Shown: positions 54,481-58,075 of the stretch, one piece after another | Position numbering within the stretch: the first letter of the stretch is position 1 | How the letters are laid out: every line of letters starts with the position of its first letter | Origin: Zhongshania aliphaticivorans | Lineage (GTDB): Bacteria > Pseudomonadota > Gammaproteobacteria > Pseudomonadales > Spongiibacteraceae | Length of the DNA stretch: 64,000 bases | Direction of reading: 5' to 3' | Assembly: GCF_902705875.1 (NCBI RefSeq) | Contig: NZ_CACSIK010000002.1 | Coordinates: 62,001-126,000, forward strand | Position numbers and translations under genes: made by a program | Notes under the pieces: model-generated | The model's database searches: none | What the model was told of the DNA's origin: nothing | What the model saw: only the letters and a program-made list of their open reading frames with translations

Positions 54481-57246
54481 ATGACAGCAATAAAACCTCT
54501 AGTTCTCGTTGATGGCTCCTCTTATCTGTATCGTGCGTTTCACGCTTTACCCCCGCTGAATACATCTAAAGGCCAACCTACCGGTGCTATCAAAGGGGTT
54601 ATTAATATGTTGCGACGTTTACAGAAAGATTACCCCGATAGCCCTATCGCCGTTGTGTTTGATGCCAAGGGCAAAACGTTTCGGGATGATATGTATCCGC
54701 AATATAAAGCGCAGCGCCCCCCTATGCCGGATGATTTACGTAGCCAAATTGAGCCCATCAATGCCATTGTGGATGCAATGGGTTTGCCGCGATTAGTGAT
54801 AGAGGGGGTTGAGGCAGATGATGTTATTGGAACCTTGGCGGCCCAAGCGAGTGGTGAGAGGCCGGTGTTGGTCTCTACTGGCGATAAAGATATGGCGCAG
54901 TTAGTGAATGAGCATGTAACTCTTGTTAACACAATGACCGATACGGTAATGGATGTGGCGGGGGTAAATACTAAGTTTGGTATCCCTCCGGAGCTGATTA
55001 TCGATTTTTTAGCGTTAATGGGCGACAAAGTAGACAATATACCGGGGGTGGCTGGCGTCGGCGAAAAAACGGCGCTCGCTCTGCTGCAGGCCTTGGGAGG
55101 TTTGGAGGATATATATCAAAATCTAGATAAAGTACCTGATTTGGCCATGCGTGGCGCAAAGGGTGTGGCCAAAAAGCTAACAGATCAGCGCGAACAAGCT
55201 TTTCTTTCCTATACATTGGCAACCATAAAGTGTGATGTTCCCCTCGATGTGTCAGTGCCAGAATTATTGCCTAATAGTCCTGATAAGACTCGGTTACTCA
55301 GTTTATTTACAGAGTTTGAGTTTAAAACCTGGGTGCAAGAATTAAGTAGAGATGAGCGTACAGAATTAATAAATGAATCAAAGGCTTCAGATGTGCCGTC
55401 AGATGATGCCCTTGATGCCGTTCCCGCGTTTACAGGAACACCTGATTATCAGCTAATCCTTACTCAATCTCAGTTTACTCATTGGTTAGATAAACTGAAC
55501 AATGCCCCACTATTTGCGTTTGATACGGAAACGACTAGCTTAAACTACATGCAGGCGCGGGTGGTTGGGGTGTCTTTTGCTGTCAATATGGGTGAAGCGG
55601 CCTACTTACCCTTTGGCCATGATTACTTGGATGCACCTGATCAGCTAGCTGAGAACGACGTACTGGCAGCATTGAAGCCAATACTCGAAGACCATAACAA
55701 ACTCAAACTTGGCCAGAATTTAAAATACGATGCAAATGTCCTCGCTAATCATGGCATTACTCTGCGTGGTATAGCCGAAGACACCATGCTTGAATCCTAC
55801 GTCTTGGATTCTGTTGGCAGCCGGCATGATATGGATACCTTGGCTTTAAAATACCTAGACCGCAGCACAATACATTTTGAAGATATTGCGGGAAAAGGCG
55901 CAAAGCAGCTTACTTTCAACCAGATTGCCTTAGAAGAAGCGGCACCCTATGCGGCAGAAGATGCAGATGTCACATTGTGTTTGCACCATGTTATGGCCGC
56001 AAAATTAAAAGCGAGCCCATCTCTGATGTCCGTGTACCGAGACATTGAATTACCCTTAGTGTCAGTGTTATCTCGCATTGAACGTAATGGCGCGCTGGTA
56101 AGCCGTGAGTTGCTTGGCAGCCAAAGCCATGAGCTGGGGTTGAAAATGCAGGCCTTAGAGAAGGAAGCCTACGACTTAGCGGGCGGCGAGTTCAATTTAG
56201 CCTCGCCTAAGCAGCTAGGAGAAATTCTTTTTGAGCGTTTGAATATTCCTGTAATAAAGAAAACCCCCAAAGGAGCGCCGTCAACTGCCGAAGAGGTGTT
56301 GGTGGAGTTGGCTCATGATTATCCGCTGCCAAAAGTGATTTTGGAGCATCGGGGTATGGCTAAGTTGAAGTCTACCTACACCGACAAATTGCCGCTCTTA
56401 ATAGATCCCAAGACGGGTCGTATTCACACCTCTTATCACCAAGCTGTTGCCGCGACTGGGCGTTTGTCTTCGTCTGATCCAAATTTGCAAAATATCCCTA
56501 TTCGCAGTGCAGAGGGCCGGCGGATACGTCAGGCATTTATTGCCCCATCTGGCTACGTTATTTTGGCTGCAGATTACTCGCAAATTGAGCTGAGAATTAT
56601 GGCCCATCTGTCAGAAGATCAGGGCTTGATAGACGCATTTGCGCGAGGCGAAGATATTCACCGAGCAACTGCGGCAGAAGTATTTGGTGTCGCTGTTGAT
56701 GAGGTGAGTGATGAGCAGCGGCGAAACGCCAAGGCGATAAATTTTGGTTTGATTTATGGCATGTCGGCATTCGGCTTGGCGCGACAGTTACATATTGGTC
56801 GTAAAGAGGCGCAGGAGTATATAGATCTTTATTTTGAGCGCTATCCTGGCGTGCTTCGTTATATGGATGAAACAAGAGTGCTAGCGGCAGAAAAAGGTTT
56901 TGTCGAAACCTTGTTTGGTCGGCGGTTATATCTTCCTGAAATCAACGCCAGTAATGGTATGCGTAGGCAGGCCGCTGAGCGCACGGCAATAAATGCCCCT
57001 ATGCAGGGGACAGCGGCAGATATAATTAAACGCGCCATGATATCTGTGGATCAGTACTTATCCGATAGTGGGATTGATGCCAAATTGATTATGCAGGTTC
57101 ATGATGAACTGGTTTTAGAAGTTGCCCCGGCAGCCCTAGACGAAGTAAAGGCTGAGCTTAGTAAATTGATGATGGCGGCAGCAAAATTGGCTGTGCCATT
57201 AGAGGTGGGGATGGGGACAGGCGCAAACTGGGATGAGGCGCATTAA
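54481..57246 (+). CDS. polA: DNA polymerase I
   Basis: A 921-residue enzyme with all three activities. The 5'-3' exonuclease domain (about 1-290) has [28 protein letters not shown] and the ADDVIGTLA and GDKDMAQLV acidic sites. The 3'-5' proofreading domain (about 325-520) keeps its catalytic residues ([10 protein letters not shown] and the AAEDADVT exo III). The polymerase domain has motif [19 protein letters not shown], motif [22 protein letters not shown], and motif [12 protein letters not shown]. Length is typical. It fills Okazaki gaps and repairs DNA. A strongly structured region with a terminator follows, before engB. Confidence 0.98.
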
Positions 57247-57259
57247 CTTGCGCAATGGT

Positions 57260-57393
57260 AAATCAGCGTCTACTTTTTAGTAGGCTATTGCTCTTAAGCG
57301 TATTTGAGAATAGCCCCGCGTTAGGAGACTTGTCTCCCCCTAACTCCTTGAGGAGTAGGATTGCCCGGCGAGTTCAGCGCGCCGGGCTTTTTT
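57260..57393 (+). ncRNA. Candidate small RNA downstream of polA (Spot 42/ErsA position)
   Basis: Between polA and engB lies a series of perfect or near-perfect stems: CTACT/AGTAG (57270-57283), GGCTATT/AATAGCC (57283-57315), GGAGA/TCTCC (57324-57337), ACTCC/GGAGT (57343-57356), and a final terminator. A CCCCC run in the middle (57336-57340) could pair with ribosome sites. The sRNA genes spf in enterics and ersA in Pseudomonas lie in this same place. The 5' end is uncertain: TTGCGC (57248-57253) and TACTTT (57271-57276) at 17 bases is the best promoter-like pair, but it is poor. It may instead be only the polA 3' end. Confidence 0.5.
57363..57393 (+). terminator. Strong rho-independent terminator after polA / candidate sRNA
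   Basis: GCCCGGC and GCCGGGC form a 7-base-pair G/C stem, followed directly by TTTTTT at 57388-57393. It stops plus-strand transcription before the convergent engB. Confidence 0.92.
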
Positions 57394-57400
57394 GCGTCTT

Positions 57401-58075
57401 TTACTCCTTAATGTCATTTTCTGGTGCGATTGTCTCGGTGTATTCGGCATTTTCCTCGCTCAGAACATCTAGCCATTGGTCTAATTTTGAGCGCAATGCT
57501 TGCAGGCCGTCGCCATTCTGCGCGGAAAATAATTGCACACTAATTAAATCCCCATAGTCGGCAAGGTTTTTGCGTACCGAAAGTAAGGTTGCTGATGCTG
57601 GCCCACGTTTGAGCTTGTCCGATTTGGTGAGCAAAATGTGTAAGGGCATAGCGCTTTTTGTTGCCCAACTTACCATTTGCTGGTCGAAGTCAGTCAGCGG
57701 GTGACGGATATCCATCATCAGTACCATGCCACGCAGAGATTCACGTTTCTGTAAATAGGCTTCAAGGTTGCGCTGCCATTCATTTTTGACAGCGAGGGGG
57801 ACCTTGGCAAAGCCGTAGCCGGGTAAGTCGACAAGTCGTTGGCGGCCGGTATCATCGAGAACGAAAAAGTTTAATAACTGGGTTCGCCCAGGCGTTTTAC
57901 TGGTTTTTGCCAGTTTTTTGTTTTCTGTGAGTCGGTTTATGGCGCTGGATTTACCGGCATTCGAGCGACCGGCAAATGCAACCTCAGCCCCAGAATCATC
58001 AGGGCAATGCATAAGGCCAGGAGAGCTTTTTAAATAGCTGGCGCGGCGGTAGTTTAATGTGGGGCTGGAATCCAT
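57401..58075 (-). CDS. engB: Ribosome biogenesis GTPase EngB (YihA/YsxC)
   Basis: A 224-residue GTPase needed for 50S ribosomal subunit assembly. G1 is [13 protein letters not shown]2 includes [12 protein letters not shown]3 is [12 protein letters not shown]4 is LLTKSDKL and G5 is in [10 protein letters not shown]. It is convergent with polA, a pairing kept in many gammaproteobacteria, and divergent from the cytochrome c genes with about 170 bases between starts. The ATG at 58075 is consistent with the family N-terminus ([13 protein letters not shown]). Confidence 0.95.

Follow-up and report, generated by a model that had tools for sequence, protein, structure and literature searches.

An earlier publication already describes a small RNA (sRNA) whose genomic context is conserved among E. 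coli, Salmonella and pseudomonads (PMC3349714). Spot 42, 109 nt long in E. coli, lies between polA and yihA/engB (PMC3295665), and the polA-engB gap also holds ErsA, which is described as having a 34-nt unstructured domain (PMC8575079) and a length of 132 nt (PMC5819304). The report on sX13 of Xanthomonas describes a C-rich RNA of 115 nt downstream of polA, recorded there only in Xanthomonadaceae, which carries CCCC or CCCCC motifs in its apical loops and represses through these C-rich motifs together with G-rich motifs of its targets, both being needed (PMC3771888). The same report places the alpha-r7 sRNAs of alphaproteobacteria, with apical C-rich motifs, at the polA locus (PMC3771888). For S17, predicted annealing would disturb ribosome binding and one target was repressed in a reporter, while S17S is described as a processed RNA with its 5′ end in a C/U-rich loop (PMC11722255). 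A literature search that left most subscription papers outside its range found no report of a Zhongshania small RNA and, for an sRNA downstream of polA, the sX13 report alone; no title among the matches listed reports the RNA described below or an order-wide pattern in polA gaps.

Here we analyse the polA-engB gap in a 64,000-nt stretch of Zhongshania aliphaticivorans DNA (the window), for which a preliminary description had proposed a regulatory RNA. Conservation, a few compensatory pairs, a terminator and a promoter-like element kept among relatives give such a gene good support. The RNA is very probably a regulator, about 110 nt long, that belongs to no catalogued family, at a site where related bacteria have other small RNAs of the same broad type. 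To the whole reading, a free-standing sRNA gene that fills the gap and acts in trans as an anti-Shine-Dalgarno sRNA, we assign a probability of roughly 0.55. In the NCBI taxonomy Zhongshania belongs to the Spongiibacteraceae, Cellvibrionales; the order used for our searches follows GTDB, where we take the genus to stand in the Pseudomonadales.

The polA-engB Locus and its Promoter-Like Element

The last 99 residues of the polA product have a match in 381 of 390 genomes of the order, and the engB protein scores 234.7 bits against TIGR03598, over the cut-off. Between them lie the features collected in Table 1.

Table 1. Features of the polA-engB locus, in window coordinates.
Feature	Position	Strand	Description
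polA (DNA polymerase I)	54481..57246	+	ORF of 921 aa; upstream neighbour; name judged from the protein
Promoter-like element TTGCG-N15-GTCTAC	57248..57273	+	Two conserved blocks
Putative small RNA unit	57283..57393	+	About 110 nt; start inferred; end at the end of the U run
Stem-loop 1, GGCUAUU...AAUAGCC	57283..57315	+	Sequence variable, pairing kept; 2 of 5 counted pairs doubly changed
Linker CCGCGUUA	57316..57323	+	Single-stranded; mean unpaired probability 0.75-0.99 in 10 sequences
Stem-loop 2, GGAGA-CUUG-UCUCC	57324..57337	+	Invariant in 10/10
Anti-Shine-Dalgarno-like segment CUCCCCCUAACUCCUU	57334..57349	+	Largely invariant; mostly paired in the predicted fold
Stem-loop 3, CCUA-A-CUCC-loop-GGAG-UAGG	57339..57359	+	Loop variable in both length and sequence
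Intrinsic terminator hairpin GCCCGGCG...CGCCGGGC and U6	57363..57393	+	Fold, and six T's after the hairpin
engB/ysxC GTPase	57401..58075	-	ORF of 224 aa; convergent downstream neighbour

The promoter-like pattern TTGC[AG]-N15-GTCTA[AC] is present in all 10 genomes of the genus that bear the unit, though the flanking bases differ. It starts 1 base after the polA stop, at 47 bases in the clade-B genomes L033 and L034 and at 16 in L032, and its distance to the RNA end is nearly constant (105-115 nt in all 10 genomes). The probable transcription start lies some 10 bases downstream of the GTCTAC block (near 57283) and the probable stop at the U run, around 57391-57393, giving an RNA of about 110 nt with four hairpins. 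As to the factor that might read this element, a scan reported no sigma-70 consensus site in the gap, and the two blocks fit the sigma-70 consensus poorly; the second block, GTCTAA/C, presumably resembles the sigma-E -10 consensus, and the sigma-E -35 GGAACT is absent from the Zhongshania element. The pattern was found 16 times in three genomes against 24 times for its reversed control and is therefore not enriched, so that no regulon sharing these blocks is suggested.

Conservation and Predicted Fold

Between relatives, the core of the unit (alignment columns 42-113) has a mean identity of 0.96 within clade A (21 pairs) and 0.84 between clades (21 pairs), and the fourfold sites of polA have an identity of 0.38 in both comparisons alike. 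The 5′ part (columns 1-41) falls from 0.85 within clade A to 0.44 between clades. The most conserved part of the RNA is 57324-57362, and the segment 57320-57360, whose comparison between related genomes had been proposed as a check, proved very highly conserved. A coding sequence or small ORF is disfavoured here: the sequences differ in length by 1 and 3 bases and show the insertion of a single C. These indels break the frame, and this reading was dropped for that reason.

The gap (57247-57393) folds at -52.0 kcal/mol against a shuffle mean of -41.9 kcal/mol (z -2.95, with 1 of 200 shuffles as good), and its opposite strand folds at least as well (z -3.95, again 1 of 200). Since both strands fold well, folding alone does not indicate the strand. 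G-U pairs occur in stem 1 (in clade B) and in stem 3, and U-G pairs occur in the terminator; on the opposite strand these would be A-C mismatches, which argues for an RNA on the plus strand. Both the candidate RNA gene and its strand are supported.

The consensus fold comprises 29 pairs in four conserved helices. Five consecutive stems had been described, and five hairpins can indeed be drawn in the window, but only four helices are conserved; the most 5′ hairpin (57268-57285, from the terminator-scan listing) overlaps the promoter-like block, extends just past it and, read by eye, is not retained in the second clade. When each sequence was folded alone, stems 2 and 3 and the terminator were recovered in 10/10, and stem 1 was partly rearranged in L028, L029, L033 and L034. 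Among the 9 distinct rows, 98.9% of cells are paired, and 2 pairs, amounting to 4 cells, are changed on both sides. None of 500 shuffles reached the 98.9% pairing, the 4 doubly changed cells or the covariation score; the number of doubly changed pairs (2) was reached by 163 of the 500 and that of further pair types by 372. Sliding the partners by -3 columns also gave 2 pairs and 4 cells, with a score of 0.088 against 0.109 and 53% of cells paired. Covariation, proposed earlier as a check on the stems, thus holds in part: compensatory changes in two pairs lend some support to stem 1 at the sequence level, whereas stem 2 and 7 of the 8 pairs of stem 3 are invariant and outside the reach of covariation.

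The strong terminator of the preliminary description is seen in the fold as a U-tailed hairpin, one pair of which appears as U-G, C-G and U-A among relatives; this hairpin is missing from the list of a simple terminator scan. The CCCCC run is likewise present, at 57336-57340, and it could pair with ribosome sites, as had been suggested. Most of it, however, is enclosed in stems 2 and 3, where 4 of the 5 C's are paired in the window and in the other five-C sequences, and 4 of 6 in L033 and L034. A free C-run in the modelled fold is therefore doubtful.

Comparison with Known RNA Families

Positional homology with Spot 42 and ErsA had been considered plausible. The shared position stands, but the models find no match, pairwise scores are near chance and a sigma-E/AlgU-type promoter is absent. 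No Rfam family, Spot 42 and ErsA included, reached its threshold in the gap. Spot 42, which is repressed by cAMP-CRP and depends on Hfq, shares the polA-engB position with the Zhongshania unit, and its model (RF00021) found no match in the window even at E ≤10.

The likeness to ErsA is closer, comprising the polA-engB gap on the polA strand (the strand of the candidate RNA following from G-U pairs, promoter-like element and terminator), a similar length, C-runs and a U-tailed terminator; in contrast to ErsA, the Zhongshania unit folds differently. The ErsA/Pseudomon-1 model (RF01719) found no match in the window at gathering or at E ≤10 and, as a positive control, matched all three loci submitted out of the eight of family f21, a label that we take to be Pseudomonadaceae. 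The combination GAAC(T/A)-N15-18-TCNNA, a sigma-E/AlgU-type promoter of the kind that ErsA has, plus terminator was found in 0 of 9 Zhongshania gaps tested, out of the 10 that bear the unit.

The sX13 RNA resembles the unit in lying downstream of polA, in its similar length and in its C-richness, and differs in its three stems with C-rich apical loops: the loops of Zhongshania stems 2 and 3 are CUUG and a variable 3-4 bases, and the C-run is mostly in stems. This separation from sX13 is one of description. The likeness to alpha-r7 is also by description, the sequence comparison consisting of whole-Rfam scans.

The best weak resemblance in Rfam is to bdhR1 (RF02278), a toxic sRNA family of Betaproteobacteria. 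Its model has a threshold of 50 bits and scores 29.6 bits in the window and 22.8-31.4 bits in 5 of 6 relatives submitted, all below threshold. The 3′ half of the unit is similar to RF02278/S17 in the succession UGUCUCC...CUCCU...GGAUU...terminator. Membership was rejected: the scores are under the threshold, and none of 30 loci fetched, from RF02278 matches in 82 genomes of which only 2 were over threshold, lies within about 1.5 kb of polA or engB. Some genomes of the class carry RF02278 matches below threshold as 2-3 spaced copies in a row (G567:C27:1129-1336 and G653:C3:217943-218301).

Compared directly with 56 other polA-downstream stretches, the unit scored near chance: when the terminator was left off, the highest z was 2.45, a value that 5 of 100 shuffles matched; when it was included, the highest z was 2.79 (2 of 100), and L120 gave 2.40 (1 of 100). 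A covariance model built from the 10 unit-bearing genus sequences (R1) gave 7 weak matches on 36 polA-downstream loci (E 0.012-0.52). The six inside the polA gap (L018, L014, L015, L070, L072 and L074; 13.1-18.7 bits) include three units of the sister genus; these matches rest largely on the terminator, and other Zhongshania terminator regions score up to 28.6 bits. A model of the sister-genus RNA (R2), used to look for this form elsewhere in Zhongshania, was strong only in the 3 sister-genus genomes among 38 searched, with two weak matches (E 0.025 and 0.086). One place in a Zhongshania genome without RNA in the polA gap, L191 (G011:C1:665423-665520), has 26.1 bits with R2 at E 0.025.

Distribution in Zhongshania

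The unit is present in 10 of 18 genomes of the genus, in one copy each and always between polA and engB, where the gap measures 154-205 bases. EngB is present in all 18. In five genomes (L037-L040 and L042) the gap is only 7-17 bases long and the unit is absent, and in the remaining three (G004, G011 and G014) engB does not adjoin polA. R1 has a single strong match in each of the 10 genomes, where second matches have E 0.0045 or worse; in the other 8 genomes of the genus the best E is at least 0.019. Nine of the places with weak second R1 matches were read by eye as possible further copies, and this reading was rejected for 7 of them, which look like plain terminators. At the other two, L187 (G017:C11:395880-396330) and L181 (G005:C96:194080-194530), a C-run of 5 or 6 precedes a terminator; to judge from the letters, these are possibly further C-rich small RNAs of Zhongshania.

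Across the order, R1 matched 9 of 390 genomes at E ≤0.001, all in the genus (the tenth, G003, was outside the draw), and none of the 373 genomes outside the genus, under strict filters able to lose weak matches. The exact core GGAGACTTGTCTCCCCC-N2-4-CTCC was found on 7 contigs of a public species collection, all titled Zhongshania, in a search that may leave out records very near the window's own genome.

The polA-Downstream Stretch Across the Order

The stretches downstream of polA were surveyed in 59 genomes outside the genus (13 + 40 + 6 loci, with L012 dropped as coming from the same genome as L072), carrying 27 family labels, the sister genus being labelled apart. They were drawn mostly from the better-scoring among the 381 polA matches, so that families with a less similar polA are under-represented. 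Our detector sought a sigma-E-type promoter followed by a terminator after 60-190 bases; it was written post hoc, after 32 gap sequences had been read, and its counts are descriptive. Such a unit follows polA in 33 of the 59 genomes and in 15 of the 27 labels, compared with 2/59 reverse complements, 1/1180 dinucleotide shuffles and 1/348 and 1/224 background windows. In its first form the detector counted 25/59 (reverse complements 2/59, shuffles 2/1180); the terminator rule and the distance were changed since long Pseudomonas loops had been missed, which raised the count from 25 to 33, the controls being run under the same rules.

Where engB is convergent and 120 bases or more away, the unit was found in 25 of 30 gaps; it was found in 1 of 7 smaller gaps and in 7 of 22 cases where engB was not found next to polA. 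All 33 hold at least one run of at least four C's; in total, C-runs number 76 and G-runs 14. In the sister genus, 3/3 genomes have a sigma-E-type unit after polA. Among 20 survey loci submitted to Rfam at gathering, 3 match ErsA (all f21) and 17 match nothing, and we regard ErsA as one case of an order-wide polA-downstream pattern. Two successive sigma-E-type promoter-terminator units stand 49-420 bases after the polA stop in L082, and L017, read by eye, has two C-rich terminator units in a row, like L082.

Proposed Mode of Action and Target Leads

The conserved part of the RNA contains the segment UGUCUCCCCCUAACUCCU, complementary to G-rich Shine-Dalgarno sequences. The candidate RNA would pair in trans with the ribosome-binding sites of some mRNAs and lower their translation; such trans-acting anti-Shine-Dalgarno action is, from its sequence, the most likely one. 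At rest, the GGAG-type strands of stems 2 and 3 would keep most of UGUCUCCCCCUAACUCCU paired, and it would therefore have to be opened first, either by invasion of a target from the CUUG loop and the linker, by an RNA chaperone or by cleavage in the loop.

G-rich sites before ATG show no clear excess: four genomes together have 121, and the reversed pattern gives 109. There are 29 against 45 in the window's own genome, and more than reversed in G008 and G010. Of these 121 sites, 50 (30 loci and 20 stretches) were examined by script for an open frame, and one gene was traced to relatives. This gene encodes an OmpA/OprF-like outer-membrane protein, with matches to PF00691, PF13505 and PF05736, and its start region in the window's genome reads UUAGGGGGAGAGUUAUG. 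There, the RNA can form 11 continuous pairs, counted by eye, with UUAGGGGGAGA just before the start. The site has GGGGG in 7/7 clade-A genomes, but so it does in 4 of the 8 genomes that lack the RNA. In the 3 clade-B genomes, all of which have the RNA, it has only GGGG (AAGGGGAG). Since the G-rich site occurs in genomes lacking the RNA and is weaker in clade B, there is no sign of co-evolution, and the OprF-like gene is the best predicted target, a lead that is not specific to RNA-bearing genomes.

Alternative Explanations

The unit follows the polA stop directly and on the same strand, and the gap lacks a sigma-70 consensus site, as would suit the 3′ end of the polA message, either a processed 3′-UTR RNA or a stabilising tail without a promoter of its own. 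We consider this unlikely, given that the two-block element stands with constant spacing between polA and the RNA in 10/10 genomes and, in L032-L034, shifts away from the polA stop while staying nearly fixed to the RNA end. The strong terminator might also serve polA alone, with conserved surroundings and no regulator; this seems improbable, as some 70 columns, beginning with stem 2 and including the terminator stem, show much higher conservation than the synonymous sites of polA, and five genomes of the genus manage with a 7-17-base gap and no unit.

A true ErsA orthologue, diverged past recognition and with a changed promoter, would share the place, strand, length class and C-rich character of the unit; its -10-like block presumably resembles that of sigma-E, the sister genus has sigma-E-type units here in all three genomes, and 6 of the 7 weak R1 matches fall in the polA gap. 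Against this, the ErsA model has no match, pairwise scores are near chance over the 56 stretches, and the weak R1 matches are mostly terminator, with other terminator regions of the genus scoring higher, so that we hold orthology to be rather doubtful. Sequestration of a protein such as CsrA/RsmA could be imagined from repeated AGGA motifs, two of which (AGGAGUAGGA), read by eye, occur in 10/10 sequences and a third in the 7 of clade A, but the GGA triplets lie in stem strands rather than loops and CsrA sponges typically carry more such motifs, which makes this reading very improbable. We therefore favour a free-standing sRNA gene with anti-Shine-Dalgarno action.

Implications for sRNA Turnover

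Taking the survey and the Zhongshania unit together, a reading that we put forward tentatively, at somewhat below even odds, is that the region behind polA has long served, throughout the order, as a slot for a C-rich sRNA of the envelope-stress (sigma-E-type) response, with ErsA as merely its Pseudomonas version. The RNA itself would have been exchanged or rewritten between families, its location, type of promoter and C-runs being kept. Rewiring in Zhongshania would have replaced the sigma-E -35 and folded the C-run away, requiring opening or cleavage, perhaps in the CUUG loop, which would leave UGUCUCCCCC as a free 5′ end, similar to that of S17S; 8 of the 18 genomes of the genus are without such an RNA in the slot.

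The candidate Zhongshania RNA adds one family absent from Rfam, and with the survey of polA gaps a first answer in countable form is available for one bacterial order. Because sequence is not kept in these gaps but place and promoter type are, they may serve to test the turnover of sRNAs with a kept role. Zhongshania, a single genus in which the RNA is present in some genomes and absent from others and in which the promoter has changed, would be tractable for such a test.
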